Positions 3,401 to 21,893 of a stretch of DNA of 21,893 nucleotides are shown one piece after another. This stretch comes from a virus. The translations under genes were made by a program, and so were the position numbers. The notes under the pieces were generated by a model. The model saw nothing but the letters and a program-made list of their open reading frames with translations. It was not told the DNA's origin and searched no databases. Where the stretch lies: the IMG/VR virus record IMGVR_UViG_3300010883_000574, positions 1-21,893 of that record. One strand, 5' to 3'. How positions within the stretch are numbered: the stretch's first letter is position 1; each line of letters begins with the position of its first letter.

Positions 3401-5819
3401 TTTTAGTGGTGGACTAAATAACAATACTAATCCAAGAGACTTAGAAGTAAATGAATATCGAGAGTTAAAGGGATTAAGTATTGAGACGCCAGGTAAACTA
3501 AAAGTTTCTGGTGCTGTTACTGATTTATCACATGTACAATCAGCAGATGAAGAAAAGTTTACTACAACACTAAACCATGGTAATGGATTGTTTCACTTTA
3601 ATAGTGATAGAGATCCAAATGATGGAGCTTTATATAATACTGAAATGTTATTTATTAATGACATTCCTAATACACAAGTAAAAGGATTTGATAAAACAGA
3701 TGGTGCATATGAAGCTAACTCTGTAATAGACTATGGCAGTGTAGCAGCTCAATTAGAATATTATGCAGTAGATGGTCAACTAAGAGTATGTCCACATACT
3801 TACACAGCTGGTAGTACAAGTAATCAAATTAAATGGCATGGATACTTAGACTTAGTAAAGGACTATGGATTTGATGCTAATGTTCATATCATTCAACAAG
3901 AAAGTGGATTTAAAGTAGATAATGCTTATGCAGCACCATTAAAAAGTGGTGTATGGTCTGGACCTGATGGATATGGATATCAAGATGGAACATTACAAGC
4001 TTATTCTGCTGGTGTTAACACACATTATTATCCTGCTTCAGCTAATCAATCAGAATTTTTATTCAATATGGCTATTTCTAGCTACACTGTAGCAGCAGGA
4101 AGTATAACACCTACTGGAACTAATTTGATAGATACTTTAGCAGATTATATGAAAGGTAGTACTTACACTGGTTATACAGATGGGTATGGTCCATTAGCAT
4201 TTTATATGTGGTTTGCTCCAGAAGACGACAATAGTAATGACACAGGAGCTAATATATCAGTATATGCAAATTCTACTAATAAAAAGTATAGTATATGGGT
4301 ATCTAATATATACGATGATCAAGAATCAAGTCCAACTCATGTTGGTCATATATTACAACCTACTTTAATTGCTGATACTAAAAAAACATTGTACTGGTCT
4401 GCTATAGGTAGAGTACCAAATAAAATTAGGCAAACTGGATTTAAAGTTTATTGGGCTATAGATGATAATGATGCAGTTGATACTCAATACTTATTTATGG
4501 AAATAGATTTTAGTAAAGGATTAAGAAAAGCTGGATCTGATATATGGACTAAGATGGGTGAAGTTACTCATAATAATTCAGGAACTATTGGCGTAGATCA
4601 TGAAAGAATGTATGCAACGGGAGCATCTTTTACATCAGGAGTTCAATATATAGTAGGATTAAGCAATATACAAACTTTAGATACAAATAATCCTTATACA
4701 AAACGTGGCTACAATCCTTTAGGCAGAGCAGGAACGTCTTTTAAAACATCTACTATTTTAAACAGAAGAGCATATGTAGGTAATATTACTTACTATGATG
4801 AAAATAATAAGCTACAAACAGCTAATGATACTGTGATAAAATCAGATGTAGGTGCTTTTGATACTTTTGATTATAAGAAGAGGATAGATGTAGATATAAA
4901 CGATGGTGATGATATTATAAAACTAGCATCTGTTGGTAATAAATTATTGGAATTTAAGAAGAGTACTTTATTTATTATTAATTGTAGCAGAGATGTAGAA
5001 TTATTAGAAGCTACATTGAAATATAAAGGATGTCAAAAAGATTACCATGTGGTACAAGCAGAAGGATTTGTAGCATGGTTTAATGAATATGGTGCATTCT
5101 TATATGATGGAGAACAACTAAGAGATTTATTAATGGGACAAAACGGACAAAAAAGATTTAAAGATTGGAATACTCAGTATTATAGTAACGATGCACAAAT
5201 TGGATACGTACCAGATAAGCAAACATTGATTATTACAAATCCAGCCATAGGGGAGTTAAATAACAATCCTAGTGGTGGAATACTAGAAATCGATTTAAAG
5301 ACGCTAGGATGGTCATATAGTGCCTCTAAAGGCAATGCTGTGGATGTATCTAACCTTATTAATACTAATGATGGTAAATTAGTATGGTTTGAAAAAGATG
5401 GTAATGATATTGAATTAAAATACTGGAATCCAGAACCTTCATTAAAAGGTGCAGCAACTACAGCTATATCTTTAAAAACACCAGCATATACTTTTGATGA
5501 TCCAAGTCTAGATAAAACTATAACAACAGTATATATAAGTTATAAGAATGGTGAAGACATAACAGTAAAAGGATTTACTGATGTAGGAGTAAACAATGAT
5601 GGAGTTTCAGATGGCTCTGCTTTTACTAGTGTAACATTAGGAACATTAGCTGGTAACAACGACGGGTCTAACAGGACAACAAAATTTAAAATAAGAGGTA
5701 TTACTTCTGCATTTAAAAAAGTTAAAACATTTGGATTGGAATTAGCAGGTGCTACAGATCAACAAGATTTTGAGATTAACGATATGCAAATAGTATATCG
5801 AAACAAAAGTGTAAAATAA
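3372..5819 (+). CDS. Large tail/neck structural protein, likely beta-rich (nozzle or DNA-stabilisation type)
   Basis: 815 aa, starting at GTG 3372 with AAAGGAAG upstream. The N terminus 'NNFSGGLNNNTNPRDLEVNE' followed by 'YRELKGLSIETPGKLKVSG' has the phage pattern 'GGL(N)...D.. NE.....N......G.l...GG' seen in podoviral tail-tube/nozzle and P22-gp10-like stabilisation proteins. The rest is almost entirely beta-strand and Gly/Asn/Asp/Tyr-rich loops. A central part about residues 515-610 has the propeller-like 'LLEFKKSTLFIIN' and 'GFVAWFNEYGAFLYDG' strands, another feature of these proteins. No signal peptide, TM or catalytic motif. I infer a structural component of a short tail; the exact position in the virion (nozzle versus hub) is not certain. 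Confidence 0.6.
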   Translation: MPKEVLNVNNFSGGLNNNTNPRDLEVNEYRELKGLSIETPGKLKVSGAVTDLSHVQSADEEKFTTTLNHGNGLFHFNSDRDPNDGALYNTEMLFINDIPNTQVKGFDKTDGAYEANSVIDYGSVAAQLEYYAVDGQLRVCPHTYTAGSTSNQIKWHGYLDLVKDYGFDANVHIIQQESGFKVDNAYAAPLKSGVWSGPDGYGYQDGTLQAYSAGVNTHYYPASANQSEFLFNMAISSYTVAAGSITPTGTNLIDTLADYMKGSTYTGYTDGYGPLAFYMWFAPEDDNSNDTGANISVYANSTNKKYSIWVSNIYDDQESSPTHVGHILQPTLIADTKKTLYWSAIGRVPNKIRQTGFKVYWAIDDNDAVDTQYLFMEIDFSKGLRKAGSDIWTKMGEVTHNNSGTIGVDHERMYATGASFTSGVQYIVGLSNIQTLDTNNPYTKRGYNPLGRAGTSFKTSTILNRRAYVGNITYYDENNKLQTANDTVIKSDVGAFDTFDYKKRIDVDINDGDDIIKLASVGNKLLEFKKSTLFIINCSRDVELLEATLKYKGCQKDYHVVQAEGFVAWFNEYGAFLYDGEQLRDLLMGQNGQKRFKDWNTQYYSNDAQIGYVPDKQTLIITNPAIGELNNNPSGGILEIDLKTLGWSYSASKGNAVDVSNLINTNDGKLVWFEKDGNDIELKYWNPEPSLKGAATTAISLKTPAYTFDDPSLDKTITTVYISYKNGEDITVKGFTDVGVNNDGVSDGSAFTSVTLGTLAGNNDGSNRTTKFKIRGITSAFKKVKTFGLELAGATDQQDFEINDMQIVYRNKSVK

Positions 5820-8907: not shown

Positions 8908-11900
8908 ATGTTAAACCCTTATATTACAAGACTAAACGAACGTTTAGCTTCTGGACGTTTAAATGAAGTTACATATGGTAATATTTTAAAAAACTATTAC
9001 GATTCAAATGCACTTTTTCTAGATCAAGACTCTATAGGATTTTTAGAAACGAAACTTTCTGAACTTGGTATACCTATAGATAATTCAGATGCAACAGACG
9101 GTATTATTAAACAAGCAGTCTCTGGTCTTATTGAAGGCTTTACTACGTTTGGAATTGCTGACAAGCCTGATACTCCTATGGAAAAAATAGTAAATAATGT
9201 TACTCACTTATTAGGTTTAGCACCAGGTATTATGATGGGTGGAGCTAGAATGTTAACAAGTGCAACAGCTACTGTTGGTAAGGCACTAGTAAGCCGTGGT
9301 GCTGCAGAATCAAGTAAATCTTTAGTTAATCTGGGTAATAAATTAGTAGCAAAGTCGAATAGGTATGCATCTAGTAGTGATAGGTTGCAAAGATCTATAG
9401 GAAGACTAGCAGATACTACTCTATTAAAACCATTTCGTTCTAATCAGCCTGTTATGTTAGACCCTGTAGCTAATAGAGCTATATATGATTTAAAATCTAT
9501 ACCAGGGAAATTAGCAGAGATAGTACAAATGCAAGGTATTGCAGCACTTGGAAAAAATAAAGGTGTTGCTTTAAATGCTATAACTAGTGGATTATTATTA
9601 GGTCAATTTAGTAAAGAAGGAGTATCAAGAATACTACATGAAGCTGGTCACGTTGGATTACTAATGGCTTTTTCTCAACATCCATTAGCAGCTAGAAATG
9701 AAGGTGGTATGTCTTGGGAAGGTGTTAAAGATATGGCTATGGCTGGTATGCATGGGGGTATAGCTGGAGGTATCTTTGGTACTATAGGTCAATATGGAAA
9801 CATATCTAAACTAATGACATCTACTAATCCTGCACTAGTAAAAGTAGGTGAGAATATTATAAGAAAAACAGCTAGTACTTTAGCTACTAAAAATACAGCA
9901 GAAGCTACTGAGTTTATAAATACTATGGTAAGAGGGACAGCTGGTGCTGGATACGGTGGTATTGTATCTTCTATGAACGACTACCCCGTAGAAGAGCAAA
10001 TATATGAAACATTAATGGGTGTATTTTTCAGTGTTAATGCTAGACCTTCGTGGCAAAGTAGAGCTACTAAAGATATAAATCTTCATGCAAATCGTTTTGA
10101 TAGAACTAAGTCTGTAAAAGAACAAGTAGAAATATTAAAAAGAGAGGAGTTCTTTACATCTGAATCTAAAGACTATCAACTATACTGGGTTAATCACTTT
10201 GAAGCTATAAGACAACAGCAATTAACTAGTAAAGAAATTATTAGCGATGAAATGGGTTTGCAAATTTTAAAAATGGTTAAAAAATTAGAAAAAAGTGGTA
10301 AGATTACTCAAGAAGAAATCAAACTTGCATTAAAAGGTAAAAGTAAAGAAGAAGGTAAACTTGGTTTATTACAGTCATTAGTAGCTTTAAAAGAAAAAAT
10401 TACTCATGATGACTATACGCCTAATATAGACATACTTCCTTATAAACCTTCTCAAAACATAGATTTAACTATCTTAACAGGAGAAAATAGTTTTAAGCAT
10501 AACTTAACCCCAGGTAATGAAGTTGACTTTCCTGTACATAGTTTAACTGAACTATCAAAGCGTGTTGCAGATACAGTAGGCTACGACATAACACAAGAAA
10601 CTTTCTTTCGAGATATAATTGGAACATTCAATCGTGTAAAGAAGAAAAGTTTCTTTAAAGATAGTAGAGGCGTTAAACATATAGATATAGATAAATTTGT
10701 AGCTTCTGTAAAAAGAAAATATCCTTTAACTAAATTTACCCCAAATGATATAAAGGAAGCTAGAAGAGTAGGTCTTAGGTTTGATAATTACAGACCTGTT
10801 ATAAATGATTTTGTTATAGATTTTACCGATCCTATAAAAAAAGGTGATGAAAAAAAACTAGGTAATGCTAGAATAATTCCACCTGTTGATCCTAAAGGTA
10901 ATACTTTAGGAAAATTAACTTCAGGTAGAAGAGATGATTTTAAAGGATTTACTAATATGGGAGCTAAAAGCATAAGCTATATGGTTGTTACTCAAGGTGG
11001 GAAACCCGTGTATGTATCACCTTTTGCTAGAAAAACTACCTATATAAAAGGAAAACCTGTTGTTGAGCCGTATGTATCCGAAAAAGATTGGTATGCTTTT
11101 GAAAATGACTTAAATGCAAATAGAGAATTTATATATGGAGCTATAGCTGATACTGGTAGAGTTGAAATTAGAAGTTTCCCATGGTCTCCTGAAGGTAAAA
11201 AAGGACATTGGACTGACGCAAACATAGCAGATGTTTATAATACTATTGTTAGGGAAGCTATAAAAACAGATGTAGGTAAAGATTGGTATAAAAATAGCGT
11301 TAAGGGTACTGCTAATTTAAAAACAAAAGTTAATACAGTTGCTACGATGATATATAGAATGCGTGATATGGGTATAATAGAAAATAATAAACAATTAGAT
11401 CCTAGTAGAATAACAACATTTAAAAAATACATTGCTAAGTACTTACAAGCTGAACGTACTGGTGACTATCAAAGTCCTGCTAAGTTTCAAAAGTATTTAA
11501 ATCAAATAGACAAAGCTGAAATACCATTCTTAGATGGTACTAGATTAGGTTTACCTGATAATGACATGAATGGTATTCTATTAGAAGACTTAAACTCTGG
11601 AATTCGTGCATCAGAAACTGATGGTACTATAATATTAAATGCTACAATATTTGATAAGTTAGTTAGGTATATGGGTAATGATGCTTCTTCTGGTATGTCT
11701 AAGGGTACCTTATATTCTAAGCCTTTAAAGACGTCTGAAGGGGCGAGAAATGACGCAGGGAATAGAAGTTTAATTATAGGTAAGTTTGCTTACGCAAGAG
11801 CCGATAAAGCTGATATGAAATACATGACTAAAGAAAATCTTCAATTTATGATGTATACTTCTGCTGCTAAACACAAATACGGCTTAGAAACAAATCTCTT

Positions 11901-14900
11901 AAATGCTGAAATGTATGATGCTAGTAAAAAAACTATAGATCAAGAAGGTATATACCCCGACGCTCCTAATAAGTTTAAAGTTCAGACAAAAGATTTTAAT
12001 TGGAACATAGATGTTCGTGAAAAAATAAACGTTACTGGTAAATTAAATATTATGCAACAAATGTTTTTAAATGCAAATAGTGTTCAGTTTGATCCATCAA
12101 CAGACATTGGTAGAAAGTTTCATGATAGTTGGGTAGAGTTGATGGATTCTGGTATAAAGGGAGATATTAAAGTAACTAAAGAAGCTATTAAAAGATTAGG
12201 TCAAAAAAAGCATAAAGGTAAAAATCTTAAAGGTGGTAGAGATTTAGAAGGATTAGATATAGATCAAATTGATATTGCTACCATTGATAAAATTATGACT
12301 ACAAGAACTAAAAGTGAAGCATTTAGAAGCATATTAAAGCATTTATATTTTGAAAACAAGCATGGTCAATTCTTAGATTCAGAACAAAGCGAGTTTAAAA
12401 GAGTAACAGAACGACATGTTGGGCAACATTTAGCAGATGCTAATTGGTCTTGGGCTGCTTTACAATCTAGAGGTACTTCAGAGTTTGTACAAAAAACTTT
12501 AAGAAATTATATAATGTCACGTATCATAAGACCAAAAGTAAGTAATAGTTATGCAGTAATTTTAGGACCTTACGATTGGAAATACTCTTTAAGAAAACAA
12601 AAATATAGTAGTGCTGAAAAAGGATTAGCAGATGATGAGTTTATGCTATGGTCTGGTGCTAAACAAATGAAAGTAAAGGATCCTGACACTGGTAAGAACA
12701 TAAGATTGGATACATGGTGGATGACCATGAAAGACGTATTAAGTTTAAATATGAGTAATACAAGAGTTGCAGCTATGTCAGCAGAACAATTGAATGCATG
12801 GAGGGATTCTCAATATGCTATTATAAATCGTTCACCTGTTATGACAGCTGGAAATATGAGAGCATTAAAATTTGTTGGATTTGCTGGTGGAAAAGGTGGT
12901 AAAGGTTTTTCATTAATTACAAATTCTCGTAACGATAATATGATGGGTGGTGCTGACAAAGACATTGATTCTGCTCACTTGTCATGGGGTATGCCTGAAG
13001 GAATAAAAAAAGGTTATAGACAAGATCACGTTCAATATGAGTTTGCAAAAGATTGGAAAAACCCTGTTGAAGATTATGAATTGAAAGACGATAAATTTAT
13101 TAGAGGCGTAGTTGATATGGAATTAGCTGGTAGTGATCCTTATGGAATACTTTCTTTTAGTAATAAGTTAAAGGCTGCAGACTCTGCTACTTACGGTAAA
13201 GATTCTATTGGTATTATATTTAATGGGTTTACACAAATAAAACAAATAACAGATTTACACTTACAGTCTAGAAAAGATTTATCTCAAAATCAAAAGCTTG
13301 AAATATGGCAAGAAATAGCTAGAATGAATGCTGCTATTGGTAATAGATATATCGACGCTGCAGAAACTACAAAATTAGAAGATGCTCATGCAGTTATGAA
13401 AAAAGTAAGAAAACATTTTACTAATTCTTATGATATACCATTAGACAATGCTACTGTAAGAAAATTTAATGACTTTCATAATGCTACTATTAAAGCTAGA
13501 TTAAAGAAAAAAGGACCTACTTACGAGCAAATTTCAGAAGAAATGCTTGACTTACATGGAGATTTAGACACTATGGCAAGTAAAATAGCATCATATACAA
13601 AAAATTTAAACTTAACTATAGATCCATTGGTTGGGTTAGAAAAAGACAATGTGTTTCAAATAGTAGCAATGCTTAATGAAGCGTTGGCAAAAGATCCTTA
13701 CGCTAGAGCATTTGGAATAGAAAATGATAGTTACTTTAAAAATTTATTTTTTAATCCTAAAACTTTAATAAAATCAGAAGAAGAAGCCATAAAAGATCAT
13801 CCTCATTTTTTGTATAATAAAATGGCTACAATAAGAGTAGTAAAGGCTGTAGAAGAAACCTATAAGTTTTTTGATGAACCACATAAAGTTCTAGGTGATA
13901 ACGTAACTAAAGAAAAAACTATAGCTGAAGCATTAGAAGACCACTATGGTATGAAAAGAAATGTGTTAGATAGTTTTGTACACCAACTTATACATACAGC
14001 ACAACAACAAAAATTTATGTTTAGTGGTCAAGCTAATGCTAAATTAAAAAAGTTTGGAGCTAATTCAAAAAATGATCCTAATCAAATGACTTATCCAGAA
14101 ACAGTTCTAATGAGTAAGAAGTATTTAAAGCAAGCATTAACAGATTTTTATGCTAAGAAAACAATTAAACAAAGTAAAGGTACAATACCAAAAAGTCATA
14201 AAGACCTTATTAATAGAGAGGTTGAGAAGCTATTTGAATACTGGCATGAAGCTAGTCCATTTATGGAGCTTAACTATAATACTATGCCTGAAATACAAAG
14301 AGCTGCATTTGAAAAAAGAAAAAAACAATGGATTAGTGTGAAAGATAGGTTAGAAAATTTAGTAAAATGGAAGAATGGAATAAAGGCTAGAGGAGAACAA
14401 CGTGAAAATAAGTGGAGCGATGATGATGCTGGAGAATACTATAAGTTAAGAGAAAAGTTAGGTAGGTATGAGTATGAAGCTAGAAACTTTCAACCTAAGG
14501 GTCAAAACAATATGATGCGTAATGCAGCTATATCTCGAGAAGTAAAAAGAGATATTTATGCATTTGAAGAAAAAATACTTTCAACATTACAAGGCGGTAC
14601 TGGAAAAAGCAGATCTAAAAGATTGTTTTCTATAACAACACTTGAAAAACCAAAAACTTTTAGTGATAAAGATGGCCCTGGTACTTTAGTAGATGTTGAT
14701 ATTAAATTTAGTGGAAAATTTGCTACAGATTTACTAGATTGGGAAGCATTAGGTAGTGCAGCTAACTTTAAAAAAGAAATTGCTTCTCAAATAAAATCAA
14801 AAGAAAAGATAATAAGTAAGTATAAAATGACACCCGAGGCTCTTACTCATGAACTAGATAGAATGGGTGATATTGTTACGAGAATGGTTAAGCATGGACA

Positions 14901-17900
14901 GACATCACACGTAATGGATCTTACTGGTATCTACTTAAAAGCATTTGAAAAATTAGATGTTGTATCTAAGCAAGGTATAGAAGAAGTAGATTACAATCAC
15001 TTAAGAATATTTAGTAACATATTAGAGAATCGTTATTTAGATGGATGGAAAGAGTGGGGTGCTAGAAAAACTATACATAGAAAACTAATAAAAGAAATTA
15101 GTGTATTAGAAAAAGAACATGGTTCAAAATTAATGCCACCTGAATTTGATACAGACTTACTATTTCCATCAGAAGTAAGTAAGATACTAGAAAAAGTGGA
15201 AAAAGTATACACCCTAGGTACTGCTCAAGTTGTTAAAGATGGTATTTTTACGGAAGTGGGTATAAGATATCCTACTGGTACTTCTTCTAGTATTGCAACA
15301 TCTATTGGTAGATCACACACAGCTGGTATTACTTTATTTGCAGCACTAGAAGAAGAGTTTAATGCTAGGTTGGATTATATAAGAGCAGAAAATTATAAGG
15401 ACTATAAAAAAATACAACCAGTAGTAGAATCTTTAGCAGCCTTTGAAAGACAAATGGGATTAAAAGGTAATGAAGCAGTTAGAGAAGAAGGACCTAGACC
15501 TAAAGAAGCAGATCGGTCTATAGCTAATTTAAGAAAGAATATATTGAAGTATAGAAAGCTTTTAAATGATATAGATTCTGATTTCAAAATTAGAATTGTT
15601 GAAAGAGGTACTGATAAGAAATTTGATTATACTCCTAGAGATATGGTAGAACATATTAAAGATATACAAACTAAGATTATGACAGATGCATACAATGTTT
15701 TATTTACTAGTAATCATGTAGTTCTAAAAACTATGTTAAGTGGAAAGCAGTTAGTTCAAGGTAATTTCCGTGGCGGTGTATTTGATTTTAATAAATTTTA
15801 CAATGTTTCTGCTAAGGATAGAATTTCAACAGAGTCACCTCAATATATGCATCAAGCTATGTCTGAAATGTTTATGGATAAACATGGAGTTATTCAACCA
15901 GATAGATTAATGTTTATAGAAAGTGTAAACTTAAATGATAGAAGATTAGCACAAGGAAAAGAGGTTGTTAGAAAGCATTTTCACGCTGAAGATTTAACTT
16001 GGGCTGAATTTCAATTAGATATCTTAGATATGGCAACAGAAACTTTTGGTACAATATTAAAAGATGGTAGCGTTGGTTTAGACTATGCTAAATTAAAAAG
16101 AACTCAATCGGATACAAAAATGAATGTAACTAAATATGAAGAATTACAAACATTTATTAGAGAAACAAACTTATCTAAAGTAGCAGACACTGAAATTGGT
16201 TTTATTGGACAAGAAGATGTAGATGGTGTAAGATTTAGTACTAAATATCACCCATTAGCACACCCTAATACTAAAGAGCATATAAAATTTATACAAAATG
16301 AACATATACCTAGAGAGACTTTACGTTTCTTTGGTAAGCTTCAGAACATTAAAACACGAGAGTACTATACAGAATTTAATGAAATAGATATTGAAGCATT
16401 TAAAAGAGGTGAAGTAGTAGGTAGATATGATAGCAAACTTGGACTAACAGAAAGTCAATTAATGCAAGAAAGTTCCGAGATTTCTAGATCAGTAGAACAA
16501 GGATATCTGACAATAGAACAAGCTGCTAAAAGATTATACGATAATATGGTAAATAAACTTGTAAATAATCCAGAACAATATAATAATGTTTTTTACGATC
16601 AAGTTGCTTTTGATAGAGTTTCTCGATTATCTACAAGAAGAGGTGCACTTTCGTCTCCAGGAGTAGGAAAGATAGCACCAACTAGAAAAAGAGCACCAGT
16701 CCCTGTAGAAGGATATGATACGTCGTTAGAAGCTTATAGAAGATACTTAAAAACAGCTTCATTGGGAGTGACAAGTCAACGTGCTGCATTAATATCTAGA
16801 TTACATATTAGAAACTTTAAGTATAACACACTCCCTGGTAATAAAAGAATTGATCCTGATGTTGGAAGAAGATGGTTGCATAAAATAATAGATATCACTA
16901 AAGGATATATGAATATGCCTAGTACAAGAAGCTTAGAATTGAATGGTGTTACTTCCAAGGATATGACTATGTTAATGGAATATGCCGACTCTGGATATAG
17001 TTTACACTTTATGAAAGAAAATCCAAAATATGATGTTGTAGATGCAAAGCTTATTAATGACATTAGAATGTATACTAGGCCTTCACAAAACGAAATTAAT
17101 AATATGGAAAAAAAGCTTTACAAAAAGTATCGTTTCAATGAAACTGCTGATATACTCAAGACCAAATTGGATAAAATAAATACTTCAAAAGCAACTGTTG
17201 AAGTAAAAAAACAGTTAAGATTTAATTTAAATAATAAGTTTAAAACAGAAAAGACTAATAAAAAATCTCGAATGCTAAAAGAATTATATGGTGAGTACAG
17301 ATTAAGAAATGGGACACTTATTAAAAGAAATAAAATTGCCCATATAGATTATGCAGAAAATATAATTCAACTACAATCTGGAAAAACTGTTCAATATGAT
17401 CCATCACAAAGCTCTGTAGGAATGATTAGAGCAAAAACTATTGAATATAGAAATGATTTTATTTATAAGACTGGTACAAAAGAAGCTAATACTGATAATA
17501 TAGATATTACCAATATAAGAAAATCATTTAGAAATTTCTATAGTGATGAAGCTGTAGGAAATGTAATGTTACGTGCAGAGTCAAGAATTAATAAAGCTTT
17601 AGGACACTTAACAGATGGTAGAATACAAATTTTTAAAAGTTTACCTAAAGATCCTACTGCGAGACATAAAGCTATGGTAGATAAACTGTCTTGGTTTGCA
17701 GATATGGAAGGTAAGTTTGAAATGATGGCTTTACTTTCTCACCCTAAATCAGCTCTTGCTAACATGTATGGTGGTACTACTAATTTAATTTCTGATGTAG
17801 GATTTAATTTTTATCTGAAATCTTTTCAGGAAGAATATCTAGTTAATGAAATATTTAAAGGAAAAACATATAAAAAGTATGATAATGAGAAACAAAAATT

Positions 17901-18993
17901 TACAGATGAACCTATTGAAGATATGAATGATGTACATAGTTATATGGAAAGTTTTGGTTTCTTGGAAGCTAACATATTAAAAGAATTAGTAATGATGCAA
18001 CCTAGTAATAAAACTGATTGGCAAGGTTTTGTAAATGTTATTGGTCCTAAGATTGTTGAAGGATTTAAACAATTACCTGTCTATACAAAAAATAAAGAAA
18101 TAAATAAAACTAATAAAGAAAAACGTAACGAACTTGTAAATAAACACTTAACCTTTGGTGAAGCATCTAAAGAGTTTGGTATTAGTAAGTTTATGTTAGA
18201 CAAAGGTGCTTATTTTATGAGAACAACTGAAAGACATTTACGTTTAAAGACTGCTATTTCACATTACCTTAAGGGTAGAGATTTATTTACAGATAGTAGA
18301 GGTCGTGTAGAAGTTTCTGAGCAATTCTTATTAGAGTTTGCACAAAAAGGTATCGAAGCTTCGCAATTTATTTATCATGCTACTAATAGACCTAATTTTT
18401 CTAACAGTAATATGGGTAAAGTAATGACACGTTTCCATCCTTATAGTTGGAATAGTATTCGAAGAAGAGCTAACATTATATCAGATCGTATGATTACAGA
18501 AGGTTATGGAGATTTTGATGCTAACAAAAAATTTGAAAGACAATTAAGTGCAGATTTAATGGTTTCTGCTCTTAGTACTGTATTTGCAGCAAGTATCTTT
18601 GAATACGCATTATCGCCTCCAATGAGTTGGATGGTAGATTTCTCTCATTTAATGTATGGTAGTCAAGAGGAAAAAGAAAGAGCCTTCTACAATCAATATG
18701 GTCATCCACTACTATCACCATTAAGTATTGTAACACCTCCTATAGGAAGATTTGTATTACAACCTATAACAAGTATTATTAATAATGACTGGGATTCATT
18801 TGTCAAGTATACTGCAGCTACAGCATTTCCATTTGGTAGGGTTGTAAGAGATGGACTTAAAGTAATAGAGACTCCAGAGATGGCCTTCGAGTTTGGATTG
18901 GGTCTTCCTATACACGCTCTTGGTAGATTAGGTAATAGACCTGATAAAGAGGAAGATGATACTGATGATGTTCTTACAGAAGACGACCTATAA
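8908..18993 (+). CDS. Giant virion protein with candidate two-barrel (DPBB) RNA polymerase core
   Basis: 3361 aa, one uninterrupted frame. Residues 90-130 and 200-310 are hydrophobic and Gly/Met-rich (for example 'HLLGLAPGIMMGGARML'); residues 3215-3236 look like a membrane helix; 3154-3190 (QFIYHATNRPNFSNS, then MTRFHPYSWNSIRRRA) has the feel of giant phage ejection proteins. Residues 903-992 resemble a lysine-bearing barrel A (K938, K959, K988). Residues 1205-1360 follow the beta-prime barrel order: VILGP (1217-1221), N1307-R-S-P1310, then D1350-K-D-I-D1354. Later, 1474-1489 (NAAIGNRYIDAAETTK) may belong to a trigger-loop-like region. The remainder, about 1700-3100, is helical with no recognised domain. 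I infer a core protein ejected into the host that transcribes early genes. No clear Shine-Dalgarno precedes the ATG. A purely structural protein is the alternative; the ORF itself is certain. Confidence 0.7.
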   Translation: MLNPYITRLNERLASGRLNEVTYGNILKNYYDSNALFLDQDSIGFLETKLSELGIPIDNSDATDGIIKQAVSGLIEGFTTFGIADKPDTPMEKIVNNVTHLLGLAPGIMMGGARMLTSATATVGKALVSRGAAESSKSLVNLGNKLVAKSNRYASSSDRLQRSIGRLADTTLLKPFRSNQPVMLDPVANRAIYDLKSIPGKLAEIVQMQGIAALGKNKGVALNAITSGLLLGQFSKEGVSRILHEAGHVGLLMAFSQHPLAARNEGGMSWEGVKDMAMAGMHGGIAGGIFGTIGQYGNISKLMTSTNPALVKVGENIIRKTASTLATKNTAEATEFINTMVRGTAGAGYGGIVSSMNDYPVEEQIYETLMGVFFSVNARPSWQSRATKDINLHANRFDRTKSVKEQVEILKREEFFTSESKDYQLYWVNHFEAIRQQQLTSKEIISDEMGLQILKMVKKLEKSGKITQEEIKLALKGKSKEEGKLGLLQSLVALKEKITHDDYTPNIDILPYKPSQNIDLTILTGENSFKHNLTPGNEVDFPVHSLTELSKRVADTVGYDITQETFFRDIIGTFNRVKKKSFFKDSRGVKHIDIDKFVASVKRKYPLTKFTPNDIKEARRVGLRFDNYRPVINDFVIDFTDPIKKGDEKKLGNARIIPPVDPKGNTLGKLTSGRRDDFKGFTNMGAKSISYMVVTQGGKPVYVSPFARKTTYIKGKPVVEPYVSEKDWYAFENDLNANREFIYGAIADTGRVEIRSFPWSPEGKKGHWTDANIADVYNTIVREAIKTDVGKDWYKNSVKGTANLKTKVNTVATMIYRMRDMGIIENNKQLDPSRITTFKKYIAKYLQAERTGDYQSPAKFQKYLNQIDKAEIPFLDGTRLGLPDNDMNGILLEDLNSGIRASETDGTIILNATIFDKLVRYMGNDASSGMSKGTLYSKPLKTSEGARNDAGNRSLIIGKFAYARADKADMKYMTKENLQFMMYTSAAKHKYGLETNLLNAEMYDASKKTIDQEGIYPDAPNKFKVQTKDFNWNIDVREKINVTGKLNIMQQMFLNANSVQFDPSTDIGRKFHDSWVELMDSGIKGDIKVTKEAIKRLGQKKHKGKNLKGGRDLEGLDIDQIDIATIDKIMTTRTKSEAFRSILKHLYFENKHGQFLDSEQSEFKRVTERHVGQHLADANWSWAALQSRGTSEFVQKTLRNYIMSRIIRPKVSNSYAVILGPYDWKYSLRKQKYSSAEKGLADDEFMLWSGAKQMKVKDPDTGKNIRLDTWWMTMKDVLSLNMSNTRVAAMSAEQLNAWRDSQYAIINRSPVMTAGNMRALKFVGFAGGKGGKGFSLITNSRNDNMMGGADKDIDSAHLSWGMPEGIKKGYRQDHVQYEFAKDWKNPVEDYELKDDKFIRGVVDMELAGSDPYGILSFSNKLKAADSATYGKDSIGIIFNGFTQIKQITDLHLQSRKDLSQNQKLEIWQEIARMNAAIGNRYIDAAETTKLEDAHAVMKKVRKHFTNSYDIPLDNATVRKFNDFHNATIKARLKKKGPTYEQISEEMLDLHGDLDTMASKIASYTKNLNLTIDPLVGLEKDNVFQIVAMLNEALAKDPYARAFGIENDSYFKNLFFNPKTLIKSEEEAIKDHPHFLYNKMATIRVVKAVEETYKFFDEPHKVLGDNVTKEKTIAEALEDHYGMKRNVLDSFVHQLIHTAQQQKFMFSGQANAKLKKFGANSKNDPNQMTYPETVLMSKKYLKQALTDFYAKKTIKQSKGTIPKSHKDLINREVEKLFEYWHEASPFMELNYNTMPEIQRAAFEKRKKQWISVKDRLENLVKWKNGIKARGEQRENKWSDDDAGEYYKLREKLGRYEYEARNFQPKGQNNMMRNAAISREVKRDIYAFEEKILSTLQGGTGKSRSKRLFSITTLEKPKTFSDKDGPGTLVDVDIKFSGKFATDLLDWEALGSAANFKKEIASQIKSKEKIISKYKMTPEALTHELDRMGDIVTRMVKHGQTSHVMDLTGIYLKAFEKLDVVSKQGIEEVDYNHLRIFSNILENRYLDGWKEWGARKTIHRKLIKEISVLEKEHGSKLMPPEFDTDLLFPSEVSKILEKVEKVYTLGTAQVVKDGIFTEVGIRYPTGTSSSIATSIGRSHTAGITLFAALEEEFNARLDYIRAENYKDYKKIQPVVESLAAFERQMGLKGNEAVREEGPRPKEADRSIANLRKNILKYRKLLNDIDSDFKIRIVERGTDKKFDYTPRDMVEHIKDIQTKIMTDAYNVLFTSNHVVLKTMLSGKQLVQGNFRGGVFDFNKFYNVSAKDRISTESPQYMHQAMSEMFMDKHGVIQPDRLMFIESVNLNDRRLAQGKEVVRKHFHAEDLTWAEFQLDILDMATETFGTILKDGSVGLDYAKLKRTQSDTKMNVTKYEELQTFIRETNLSKVADTEIGFIGQEDVDGVRFSTKYHPLAHPNTKEHIKFIQNEHIPRETLRFFGKLQNIKTREYYTEFNEIDIEAFKRGEVVGRYDSKLGLTESQLMQESSEISRSVEQGYLTIEQAAKRLYDNMVNKLVNNPEQYNNVFYDQVAFDRVSRLSTRRGALSSPGVGKIAPTRKRAPVPVEGYDTSLEAYRRYLKTASLGVTSQRAALISRLHIRNFKYNTLPGNKRIDPDVGRRWLHKIIDITKGYMNMPSTRSLELNGVTSKDMTMLMEYADSGYSLHFMKENPKYDVVDAKLINDIRMYTRPSQNEINNMEKKLYKKYRFNETADILKTKLDKINTSKATVEVKKQLRFNLNNKFKTEKTNKKSRMLKELYGEYRLRNGTLIKRNKIAHIDYAENIIQLQSGKTVQYDPSQSSVGMIRAKTIEYRNDFIYKTGTKEANTDNIDITNIRKSFRNFYSDEAVGNVMLRAESRINKALGHLTDGRIQIFKSLPKDPTARHKAMVDKLSWFADMEGKFEMMALLSHPKSALANMYGGTTNLISDVGFNFYLKSFQEEYLVNEIFKGKTYKKYDNEKQKFTDEPIEDMNDVHSYMESFGFLEANILKELVMMQPSNKTDWQGFVNVIGPKIVEGFKQLPVYTKNKEINKTNKEKRNELVNKHLTFGEASKEFGISKFMLDKGAYFMRTTERHLRLKTAISHYLKGRDLFTDSRGRVEVSEQFLLEFAQKGIEASQFIYHATNRPNFSNSNMGKVMTRFHPYSWNSIRRRANIISDRMITEGYGDFDANKKFERQLSADLMVSALSTVFAASIFEYALSPPMSWMVDFSHLMYGSQEEKERAFYNQYGHPLLSPLSIVTPPIGRFVLQPITSIINNDWDSFVKYTAATAFPFGRVVRDGLKVIETPEMAFEFGLGLPIHALGRLGNRPDKEEDDTDDVLTEDDL
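11614..12987 (+). other. Two double-psi beta-barrel RNA polymerase-like core within the giant protein
   Basis: Domain annotation, residues about 903-1360. Barrel A: 'ETDGTIILNATIFDKLV' opens with the D-G strand, then K938 in 'LYSKPL', K959 in 'IIGKFAY', and 'YTSAAKHKYG' with K988; single-chain two-barrel polymerases carry their catalytic lysines here. Barrel B: 'SNSYAVILGPYDW', then after a helical insert 'AIINRSPVMTAGNMRALKF' and 'MMGGADKDIDSAHLSWG'. Bacterial beta-prime reads VxVGP ... LNRAPTLHRLGIQAF ... NADFDGDQMAVH; the R-to-first-D distance is 35 residues there and 42 here. DxDxD instead of DxDGD is what I recall for the crAss-like phi14:2 gp66 virion polymerase (DFDID). The assignment rests on motif reading only. 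Confidence 0.6.
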
Positions 18994-19069
18994 GGGTCAT
19001 AATTAGCCCTACACGTACGCCGTTGTTTTTTGTTGAACATTCTTATTAAAAATTTTTTTATTACCTTAT
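18994..19069. terminator. Convergent operon junction; only weak terminator candidates
   Basis: 76 nt between the stop of the giant + strand gene and the stop of the - strand operon. On the + strand, AGGGT-N7-AGCCCT (18992-19010) can form a 4-5 bp stem, but the T6 run (about 19025-19030) starts well after it. The A5T7 stretch near 19050 is symmetric and could serve either strand weakly. A bidirectional terminator is expected here; the sequence supports it poorly. Confidence 0.25.
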
Positions 19070-19363
19070 TTAATCGTATTTTTTAATGTCTATTTTATAA
19101 CTATTATCTAATCCCTCGTTGTCTATTAAATTGTGGCAAGCTTTAGTTGCCTCAATATAATAACTTTTTCTGCTTTGAAATTCTTTTTTATGAGTCATTA
19201 CGTCTATTCTACAAATATTAGGTCTTTTATCATATATAGAACATAAATTGCCTATTAAATTAGCACAACTCCCATCCTCTTTTATTGGTAAACCATATTT
19301 AGCTCCATCCATTTTACCAGCGGCTCTACAACAAGCCCCGCAACTAGAACATAAAAATTCCAT
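19070..19363 (-). CDS. YkgJ-like CxxCxxCC metal-binding protein
   Basis: 97 aa, ATG preceded by AAAGGAG. It starts 'FLCSSCGACCRAAG' (C5-x2-C8-x2-C11-C12), followed by 'GSCANL' (C33), 'CSIYDKRPNICR' (C41, C51) and C76. This is the arrangement of the CxxCxxCC (YkgJ/UPF0153) family, small proteins thought to bind zinc or iron; the family's function is not well defined. It is the last gene of the - strand operon and lies after an 85-nt leader containing a 10-bp hairpin. It could be a metalloenzyme accessory or a regulator. Family assignment is firm, role is not. Confidence 0.85.
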   Translation of the reverse strand: MEFLCSSCGACCRAAGKMDGAKYGLPIKEDGSCANLIGNLCSIYDKRPNICRIDVMTHKKEFQSRKSYYIEATKACHNLIDNEGLDNSYKIDIKKYD

Positions 19364-19389
19364 TACTTATATCTCCTTTCATAGGCAAC

Positions 19390-19420
19390 CTGAACTATGC
19401 TTTACGATAACATAGCTCAG
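19390..19420 (-). other. 10-bp stem-loop in leader of the CxxCxxCC gene
   Basis: CTGAACTATG (19390-19399) and CATAGCTCAG (19411-19420) pair over ten positions with an 11-nt loop. Read on the - strand (CTGAGCTATG...CATAGTTCAG) the only non-Watson-Crick pair is a G.U, so the hairpin is better in - strand RNA than in + strand RNA, where that pair is A.C. There is no following U-run, so it is not an intrinsic terminator. It lies 26 nt before the ATG of the gene at 19363. It could be an RNase processing site, stabilising hairpin or regulatory element. Confidence 0.55.
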
Positions 19421-19448
19421 ATATTAGTAGGTATACTTGCCATAATTA

Positions 19449-19595
19449 TTATTTTTCTTCTTCTTCTTCGTAATCTTCATCTATAAATTCTCCCCAATCT
19501 TTACATCCTGTGCATAATGCTATGTAAAGACCTTTAGTATCAGTTTCTATTGGTTCTGATGCTGGAACTCCATTAATACATATTGTACATTCCAT
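19449..19595 (-). CDS. Small zinc-ribbon-like protein with poly-Glu tail
   Basis: 48 aa, ATG at 19595 preceded by AAAGGAG at ideal spacing. The sequence starts MECTICINGVPASEP and has two CxxC pairs, C3-x2-C6 and C28-x2-C31 ('LCTGCKDW'), 21 residues apart: the classic spacing for a four-Cys zinc knuckle or ribbon. The C terminus is strongly acidic (DEDYEEEEEK), encoded by a GAA repeat. No known family is certain; small zinc-ribbon phage proteins often modify host RNA polymerase or other host complexes. It lies directly downstream of the structured intergenic element at 19615-19776. Confidence 0.7.
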   Translation of the reverse strand: MECTICINGVPASEPIETDTKGLYIALCTGCKDWGEFIDEDYEEEEEK

Positions 19596-19614
19596 AATTT
19601 CTCCTTTTTAATTT

Positions 19615-19776
19615 ATTATTCCCTTTCATTGAAGTAATAATGTTTGACGCCAACCAAACAGTATTTGCAATCAATCGTTTATTAAACATTTATTAAATAA
19701 ACCTATTAATTAACAGATGACAAGCGTGGACTTAACCACTCAGATCCTCATAATCTGCTTTAAGAAAGGGAATAAT
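19615..19776. ncRNA. Candidate structured RNA: 19-bp closing helix enclosing four hairpins
   Basis: ATTATTCCCTTTC (19615-19627) is the exact reverse complement of 19764-19776. After one bulged A (19628), TTGAAG (19629-19634) pairs with CTTTAA (19758-19763). Inside are four hairpins: 19641-19646/19655-19660 (6 bp), 19677-19683/19696-19702 (7 bp), 19726-19729/19736-19739 (4 bp) and 19741-19745/19753-19757 (5 bp, 7-nt loop). The last hairpin abuts the closing helix and is one base from its neighbour, as in a stacked multiway junction. The element fills the 184-nt gap between two genes of a tightly packed - strand operon. Strand is uncertain: one pair in the closing helix is G.U on + but A.C on -. 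Riboswitch-like leader of the zinc-ribbon gene, independent ncRNA, or DNA-level structure such as an origin are all possible. Confidence 0.6.
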
Positions 19777-19779
19777 TGT

Positions 19780-19941
19780 TTAATTATCTTTATTAATTCT
19801 CATTAATATTTCTTCAATCATTTCTTTCTCTGTTTCTCCAACGAAAGGTGCTTTTCTATAATTTAATAGAGCTGCTTTAACAATCATTAATTCTGCTGGG
19901 TTATAGAAATTTAAACGATTTTCTGTTTTCTTTTTAACCAT
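19780..19941 (-). CDS. Small helical hypothetical protein
   Basis: 53 aa from ATG 19941 (54 aa if ATG 19944 is used). It overlaps the last codons of the upstream 73-aa gene (ATGATGGTTAA), typical of coupled phage genes, and has no strong Shine-Dalgarno of its own. The product begins MVKKKTENRLNFYNPAELM and continues as two predicted helices with a loop 'RKAPFVGETEKEM'. No family recognised. Its stop lies 4 nt before the closing helix of the structured element. Confidence 0.65.
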   Translation of the reverse strand: MVKKKTENRLNFYNPAELMIVKAALLNYRKAPFVGETEKEMIEEILMRINKDN

Positions 19942-20155
19942 CATGACACTCACAATTTCCTGGCCCTGGACGTCCAGTCATATCATGTTGATCTTCTGAT
20001 TCTCTAATCATGTTATCTATAGCATAATCTTTATCTTTATCTGCTTTCATATCTATGATCTCTTGAGGATCTGGTTTATCCATCTCTATTATAATCTTCT
20101 GAGCTATAGATACAATTAATTCTACTTCTTTTGCTTCAAGATTTATCTTTACCAT
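19934..20155 (-). CDS. Small acidic hypothetical protein
   Basis: 73 aa. A very good ribosome-binding site (AAAGGAGG, 5 nt before ATG) supports the start, even though it lies inside the 3' end of the upstream gene, where it encodes part of N-K-G-G-K-N-G. Residues 1-30 look like a helix with a hydrophobic face (EVELIVSIAQKIIIEM); the rest is acidic and ends N-C-E-C-H-D-G, a possible metal-binding C-x-C-H tail. No known family. Overlaps of 20 nt upstream and up to 11 nt downstream place it firmly in the operon. Confidence 0.7.
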   Translation of the reverse strand: MVKINLEAKEVELIVSIAQKIIIEMDKPDPQEIIDMKADKDKDYAIDNMIRESEDQHDMTGRPGPGNCECHDG

Positions 20156-20327
20156 TTTTGCCTCCTTTATTTTTACTTATTTGCTTATGGAAATCTTGTA
20201 AAACTAGATTAGATGCTACGTTTGCATAATGATTATCTGCGTCATTTGCAAAGATTCCATATTCTGATAATGATTCCTCTAAAATTTCCCATTGTTCCAT
20301 TGTTACTTGTAATGTTTGATTACTCAT
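20136..20327 (-). CDS. Small hypothetical protein
   Basis: 63 aa. The start shares ATGA with the stop of the nuclease gene and has AAAGGAGATGAAAGA in front. It is helical (MEQWEILEESLSEYGIF) with a Lys/Gly-rich C terminus that also encodes the next gene's Shine-Dalgarno. No domain recognised; a regulator or accessory factor of the replication module by position only. Confidence 0.68.
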   Translation of the reverse strand: MSNQTLQVTMEQWEILEESLSEYGIFANDADNHYANVASNLVLQDFHKQISKNKGGKNGKDKS

Positions 20328-20647
20328 TCTTTCATCTCCTTTTCTATTTTAATTAATCTTATCCATTCTATATATGGTATTATAGCTAATGCTTCCTTGC
20401 GATCCATACGTGTTACTACGATATCTACATCGTCTGCATGGTATTTAGGATATAACCATTGTGCAATCTTCTTTTTCATTTTAGCTTGAATTGCATATCC
20501 TTCTACCAAACAATCAACCTGTTCAGATTTTCCTAGTGCTAAACCGTTTGAGGCATAGGCCCTCTTTGCAGAGAGCCCTTCCTCTTTAGCGATATTAACA
20601 CATTCTCTTTCAAGATTGTTACCACGTATTTTATTTCTATGAGTCAT
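20324..20647 (-). CDS. Holliday-junction-resolvase-like PD-(D/E)xK nuclease
   Basis: 107 aa. The N-terminal helix 'RGNNLERECVNIAKEEGL' carries E13 and E15, followed by 'AKRAYASNGLALG', 'EQVDCLVEGYAIQAKMKKK' and 'VDIVVTRMDRKEALAIIPY'. This is the layout of the small archaeal Hjc/RecB-like nuclease fold: E in helix 1, D45 at the end of the second strand and x-K56 on the third. The usual acidic residue two before the Lys is Gln (Q54-A-K56), a substitution known in some PD-(D/E)xK proteins. It probably cuts branched replication or recombination intermediates before packaging. Placed downstream of the helicase, consistent with DNA metabolism. It overlaps the upstream gene by 11 nt. Confidence 0.78.
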   Translation of the reverse strand: MTHRNKIRGNNLERECVNIAKEEGLSAKRAYASNGLALGKSEQVDCLVEGYAIQAKMKKKIAQWLYPKYHADDVDIVVTRMDRKEALAIIPYIEWIRLIKIEKEMKE

Positions 20648-20864: not shown

Positions 20865-21893
20865 TTATTTTAATGTCTTAAAAGTAAAGTCATTAGTCTC
20901 AAAGAAGCAAGTCATTTCGAATCTATCTTCATCTCTTGATTTTTCAGATGTAATAGTTCTAACTTTCTCGTTTCTTTCACCTTTAATAACTAATACTTTA
21001 TCAGCTTTTTGTACTAGATTAGATGATCCCTTCAATGAATGAAGAGTTATTACATTTGATGCTGCACTTATCTTATTTAAATGAGATATAGCAATAATTA
21101 TTATATTATTTCTTTGAGCAATTTGCTTTAAGCCATCAATAATAATATTTTGCTTTTCTATTTCTCCTCTATTAAATTCAACTTGTATTTCATCTGTAGT
21201 ATCTAATACTAATACGTTTGGATTATATTCTGCAACAATTTTCTTTACTGCATCTATTCTTGGTGCTATAGTCAATATTTTGATATGTTTTAATTTATCT
21301 GTTAATGTGAAGTCTGGATTAGTTGAATATTCCTTATCAATCCATTCTTGACTTTTTCCTATTGCCATTTGAGCAAACCTTCTAAAAGTTAATTCTTCTT
21401 TCATTTCCAAAGATAGATACAGGCAGTCTTTCATTGCCTTTGTAACTAAATATTGAATAAACGCTGATTTCCCCATACCTGTATCACCTGAAAACACAAC
21501 TAGTTCACCTGGTTTTAATCGATACTTTGGTACTTTAAATATATCAGCCATATCAATAGAACGTTGACTTAAGTCTTCTTTAATATAAGTTCTTAAGTTT
21601 GATTCTAATTTGTCAATACTGTTAATTTCTAATGTATAATCTTTACGTTTAAAGTATATACATTTTGGATCACAATATTCTGACATAATATGGTCATTAC
21701 AACTGTAAGAATAGTTACCTTCATAAACATTAGTAACTGATCTTTCAATTTCATCGTCTGGTAAGGTGCTATTTGCCCATGTAAACATTCCATTTAATGT
21801 TACAAGGAAAGGTACACCAGCTCTTTTATAAGAACTTACCATTCTCATTAGTTTCATATTTCTAGATCCTTTAATTGGACCTTCGTTAAATAC
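20865..21893 (-). CDS. Replicative DnaB-type helicase, possibly a primase-helicase (5' end outside window)
   Basis: The frame is open to the right edge (12 further codons before the ATG at 21857), so the gene starts outside. Counting from that ATG: a RecA/SF4 core with Walker A 'SGDTGMGKSAF' (G124-S131), a conserved acidic position E151, Walker B 'NVLVLDTTD' (D219), the 'SHLNK' sensor (H259), and 'LKGSSNLVQKADKVLVIKGE' with the arginine-finger region at R305. The region before it contains 'SYKRAGVPFLVTLNGMF' and 'DDEIERSV', similar to PriCT-type linkers, then three Cys (C53, C62, C66) that may form part of a zinc site. I infer the helicase half of a phage primase-helicase, unwinding DNA 5' to 3' at the fork. 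It is first of the visible operon, ending 18 nt before the next ATG. Confidence 0.85.
   Translation of the reverse strand, partial: VFNEGPIKGSRNMKLMRMVSSYKRAGVPFLVTLNGMFTWANSTLPDDEIERSVTNVYEGNYSYSCNDHIMSEYCDPKCIYFKRKDYTLEINSIDKLESNLRTYIKEDLSQRSIDMADIFKVPKYRLKPGELVVFSGDTGMGKSAFIQYLVTKAMKDCLYLSLEMKEELTFRRFAQMAIGKSQEWIDKEYSTNPDFTLTDKLKHIKILTIAPRIDAVKKIVAEYNPNVLVLDTTDEIQVEFNRGEIEKQNIIIDGLKQIAQRNNIIIIAISHLNKISAASNVITLHSLKGSSNLVQKADKVLVIKGERNEKVRTITSEKSRDEDRFEMTCFFETNDFTFKTLK

Follow-up and report, generated by a model that had tools for sequence, protein, structure and literature searches.

The element at positions 19615-19776 on the minus strand of the virus record IMGVR_UViG_3300010883_000574 (the window, that is, the whole 21.9-kb stretch analyzed here) would, judging from sequence comparison, represent in this virus a family of structured non-coding RNAs that is apparently undescribed and acts in trans, a reading whose chances we regard as about even. 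Across the relatives that we have compared, the fold, a core of nucleotides and the genomic place are conserved, while the sequence itself changes fast and entire architectures are exchanged. Because the element is present in all 26 adequately covered relatives, because several of its helices covary, because no database entry matches it and because it is rapidly exchanged, it stands, among uncultured phages, as a strong candidate for a new functional RNA. The swapping of architectures also gives a hint of some part in conflict between phage and host or between phages, and the covariance model can serve others as a search handle.

On the plus strand of the window, the long genes lie between 178 and 18993, and one of them is a giant ORF of 3361 aa (8908-18993) that takes up nearly half of the window and whose counterpart in a relative measures 3109 aa. 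The minus strand, read from the right end, holds the replication genes, namely a DnaB-like replicative helicase (20865-21857; PF03796, E=2e-10; phrog_19), which the window end may cut, and a RusA-like resolvase gene (20324-20647; phrog_244, E=1.4e-5), the constant upstream neighbor in relatives, followed by small ORFs, the element and further ORFs. A 57-aa ORF (19780-19953, minus) lies upstream of the element, its stop codon 3 nt before the outer helix, P1; downstream comes a 48-aa Cys-rich ORF (MECTICINGV...; 19449-19595, minus), which is optional cargo, and after it in the same series a CxxCxxCC protein (PF03692). The element fills the sole sizeable gap of this gene series, as the initial annotation had it. 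A relative of 47.4 kb (L361-L363) has the same gene plan and encodes a terminase (PF17289), a P22-like portal (PF16510) and an SU10-like capsid (PF17236). Against 50,697 phage records, the window helicase drew no match and the RusA-like protein reached only 34-39% identity, in Salinibacter phages. The phages carrying the element form an uncultured group with a P22-like portal, an SU10-like capsid and one giant protein, apparently of marine origin, the latter being a reading of the collection rather than recorded metadata.

Within the window, the element follows the architecture that we term type A, with P1, a first hairpin bearing a UAAAAGG-like loop, a second hairpin, GCAAATAC and a TTGGTTGGC hairpin, all read on the minus strand. 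P1 is formed by ATTATTCCCTTTC (5' arm, 19764-19776) and GAAAGGGAATAAT (3' arm, 19615-19627), which confirms the 13-bp perfect helix described earlier. It encloses HP1 (19741-19757; stem CAGAT/ATCTG, loop TATGAGG, consensus UAAAAGG), HP2 (19726-19739; stem GTGG/CCAC, with the consensus GGU...UCC at the loop), an A+T-rich insertion with a third hairpin (19669-19725), the conserved GCAAATAC (19661-19668) and, in the MFE fold, HP4 (19641-19660), whose stem TGTTTG/CAAACA surrounds the loop with the conserved core TTGGTTGGC (19649-19657). GCAAATAC is invariant in the 26 aligned type A members, and so is TTGGTTGGC in the 26 aligned members, the latter occurring in type B too. The enclosed hairpins are present in the window, and three of the four originally proposed (HP1, HP2 and HP4) are conserved; the third is a variable insertion that is short or missing in most relatives. 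An additional 6-bp helix inside P1 did not survive comparison: it needs a G-U pair on the plus strand, is interrupted on the minus strand and was not seen in relatives, and the plus-strand reading built on it was rejected because the helix is not conserved.

Both strands of 19600-19790 fold well, the minus strand at -45.3 kcal/mol (z -4.0) and the plus strand at -39.9 kcal/mol (z -5.1), with 0 of 200 shuffles as good in either case. Of the two, the minus (operon) strand is most likely the biological one. All members examined are oriented in the operon sense, and G-U pairs outnumber A-C pairs in the element (46 versus 21; interior, 28 versus 13), an excess that constitutes modest evidence of strand, G-U having been permitted during pair choice. 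Taken together, constant orientation with the operon and the surplus of G-U over A-C favor, but do not prove, an RNA over a DNA element.

At least some 36 distinct relatives carry the element at the same place. Searching with the RusA-like protein retrieved 27 loci, 26 of which reach far enough downstream, and every one of these 26 (a few being duplicates of one virus) has the element downstream, in 20 cases as type A, in three as type B and in three as type C. A search with a pattern that included GCAAATAC supplied further members, those listed being a minimum, and a RusA-like gene lies upstream in every clear member whose contig extends far enough. The 36 type A sequences share a common plan of P1, HP1 with the loop UAAAAGG or similar, HP2, GCAAATAC and HP4 with TTGGTTGGC; P1 spans 9-14 bp in most of them and 29 bp in L015, and is built from many different sequences. 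The sequence core of type A consists of GCAAATAC...TTGGTTGGC and the hairpin loop UAAAAGG, its invariance being in part a circular effect of ascertainment, since many members were collected by the core motif. R1, a covariance model built on five near-identical members, recovers the other members, many of them with very low E-values, and finds the window with exact ends at E=0.015; R2, a second model from 33 members with the window left out, matches the window at precisely 19615-19776 on the minus strand, scoring 43.2 bits at E=4.9e-6 over 0.4 Mb. R2 gave no useful E-values on types B and C, which are consequently linked to type A through the core motif and the shared place. The pattern TTTGGTTGGCGTYAAA was discarded as a search handle, its matches being mostly unrelated DNA. 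Among the matches listed in a scan of bacterial and archaeal genomes, those examined were scattered and without the rest of the element, and when the element was compared with cultured phages by BLASTN, only weak A+T-rich pieces or nothing came up.

Covariation is extensive. In the R2 alignment, which was fitted to the structure, 94.1% of cells are paired (shuffles, 74.7%), double changes occur in 24 of 29 pairs, and double-changed cells number 152 versus 36.8 in shuffles and 5-23 with slid partners. The compensatory changes in the outer helix that had been named as support for an RNA are abundant, each of the 13 P1 pairs being double-changed in one relative or more; double-sided changes also affect four of the five HP1 pairs (98.8% of cells paired), three of five in HP2 and four of six in HP4. 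All counts from this alignment are inflated to the extent that the type A helices were partly picked by complementarity. RNAalifold on a structure-blind MAFFT alignment is exempt from this bias and recovers HP1, whose pairs have 8, 3, 9 and 10 double changes and are never broken. Under a home-made tree-preserving null that borrows the idea of R-scape but is not R-scape, and in which substitutions are redistributed on the tree, seven column pairs reach E<0.05, six of them proposed base pairs, of which P1 contributes four and HP1 and HP2 one each; the partial choice of helices by complementarity inflates this count as well. A further interaction is suggested by the counterpart of 19669-19725, which in many relatives is short and bears a CCUU-like stretch that complements the HP1 loop: complementarity between that loop and the segment from HP2 to the core was equaled or bettered in 8 of 500 permutations, and pairing variants such as UUACAAG/CUUGUAA and UAUUAG/CUAAUA occur among members. 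An HP1-loop pseudoknot thus appears likely, with moderate support, in many members; the pairing was not seen in the window.

Types B and C reside at the same locus as type A and share a TTGGTTGGC-like core. Type B displays an AAUAC-like segment and UUGGUUGGCUACUAA, followed by a hairpin of variable stem whose loop UUAGUC can pair with ACUAA; type C is a softer architecture. When rusA nucleotide identity lies between 0.90 and 0.95, mean identity in the element is about 0.6 and the types differ in 25 of 43 pairs; L003 (type A) and L008 (type C) share 97% of rusA and 51% of the element. Variation extends to the small ORFs that separate rusA from the element, so that turnover involves the whole module. 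Directly upstream of the type C element in L008 (~3630-3705) and L014 (~3590-3660) there is a second long stem with compensatory TTAAAGCGGGA/TCCCGCTTTAA and TTAGGGTGGA/TCCACCCTAA, which looks like another structured RNA.

In most members P1 starts 0-4 nt past a stop codon, and a promoter therefore has no room outside the upstream ORF. The downstream neighbor varies between the Cys-rich ORF, a groES-like gene, other small ORFs and no same-strand gene at all; where a gene is present, its ribosome-binding site starts a few nt after P1. About a dozen lineages (L009, L011, L014, L042, L067, L069, L080, L084 and L123 among them) have no plausible same-strand ORF downstream within reach, very small ORFs being liable to be missed, and a convergent giant gene then lies ~37-137 nt from the element. 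The Cys-rich 48-aa ORF follows the element in the window and in L004 and precedes it in L009. A small gene directly after the element in L061, L076, L102, L109, L118, L140 and L088 is putatively groES-like (co-chaperonin), a label taken from the start of its sequence, and is probably cargo. AGCCACCGAAAAA recurs downstream of the element in L009, L014, L067, L080, L084, L101 and L123, mostly close to the 3' terminus of the convergent giant gene, and could pair with GGUUGGC with one bulge. A separate stem flanked by A and T tracts follows the element in L016 (~3785-3835; GATTGCGAGGATA/TATCCTTGCGAT) and L015 (~3820-3870), apparently a bidirectional terminator.

Comparison with known RNA classes bears out the earlier proposal of a new candidate structured RNA (or DNA), not recognized as a known riboswitch or tRNA and with no terminator character. 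At gathering thresholds, Rfam 15 places no family in the window or in 12 relatives, and lax scans of the window and the scanned members yielded weak matches only, none of them credible; the best, to RF02772 in L344, reaches 27 bits where the gathering score is 81, and this AilA thermometer match, at one third of the required score, was taken as chance. ARAGORN finds no tRNA or tmRNA in the element, and 18900-20200 contains 0 sites with the G+C-rich hairpin, short loop and ensuing T run of an intrinsic terminator. We also set aside a cobalamin riboswitch, which we presumed AAAAGGAA...GGUGAAAAUCC of some members to resemble, for want of Rfam support, and a likeness to 16S/23S rRNA, the matching pieces being short and inconsistent between members. 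HP1 of L019 resembles what we take to be a CsrA SELEX site (a CsrA-type GGA hairpin), a lead only, since that loop can also pair with a CCUU-like sequence.

What might such an element do? The window is A+T-rich, as would suit a chance fold, but covariation and z-scores of -4 to -5 refute this explanation, whose probability is practically nil and which the initial annotation had likewise dismissed. An element working as DNA (a cruciform, or a single-strand replication or packaging signal) would account for a long inverted repeat at the junction of the replication and structural blocks and for the good folding of both strands; nevertheless, the predominance of G-U over A-C fits an RNA of the operon strand, even if pair selection favors G-U and a single-stranded DNA might still fit, and we deem a DNA element unlikely. 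A riboswitch or leader for the gene immediately downstream is, in our estimation, very unlikely: the conserved loop nucleotides do look aptamer-like and the ribosome-binding site, where there is a gene, is suitably close to P1, yet a cis-acting leader should always precede a gene of one function, whereas here the genes that follow show no relation from one member to the next and, in the dozen or so lineages facing only the convergent giant gene, are apparently missing.

More serious is the possibility, on balance a doubtful one, that no separate RNA exists and that the closed fold acts in cis as a 3' or intercistronic element, shielding the mRNA of the replication operon from exonucleases or directing its processing. 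Its position directly after stop codons, often last in the operon, and the apparent terminator behind it in L016 agree with such a role; a plain stability hairpin, however, would need neither conserved unpaired stretches nor two different pseudoknot arrangements nor the exchange of whole architectures. With leader and plain stability hairpin both disfavored, a separate RNA is favored, and action in trans follows from the lack of a constant downstream gene. In the course of events that we infer, from transcription and excision to action in trans and the nature of the partner, the operon transcript would include the element as its 3' part or between the last replication genes; the long P1 would join the RNA ends and enclose HP1, HP2 and HP4 as a closed domain; cleavage at P1 or close to it would release the RNA from the operon transcript; and, once excised, it would act in trans, presenting the conserved loops UUGGUUGGC, GCAAAUAC and AAGGA to some protein or RNA, perhaps a factor of the host. 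A tentative extension, which we consider possible rather than probable, is that the locus is a hypervariable, allele-swapping one on the phage side of a conflict, exchanging architectures A, B and C while keeping the core loop GGUUGGC; if so, the RNA would be a decoy, anti-defense or immunity RNA directed against hosts or rival phages.

Several known phage RNAs invite comparison. The packaging RNA of the phi29 type is, like the element, a structural RNA of phages in which a long helix joins the ends; the element differs in having no Rfam match and in being located after replication genes. The manA (RF01745) and wcaG (RF01761) motifs, together with marine and cyanophage candidate RNAs, came from comparative genomics (Weinberg et al. 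2010, PMC2864571); like them, the element is a structured RNA found in apparently marine phage DNA by that route, whereas manA and wcaG are read as cis regulators of metabolic genes and the element has no Rfam match. Racr, an RNA-based anti-CRISPR, is a small phage ncRNA targeting a host factor in trans (PMC10651486), the kind of action proposed here. It mimics CRISPR repeats as solitary repeat units; among the Rfam CRISPR repeat families, the set compared with the element, none passes its threshold, CRISPR-DR34 giving 13.9 bits versus 35. Finally, the vrRNA of VIPR systems carries 9-16 YNNGG tandem repeats (PMC13142463, preprint), which our sequences lack; vrRNA is nonetheless a phage RNA of roughly 100 nt with a conserved structured part and, in one clade, a pseudoknot, features in which the element resembles it, and GG-pyrimidine letters occur in the core of the element.
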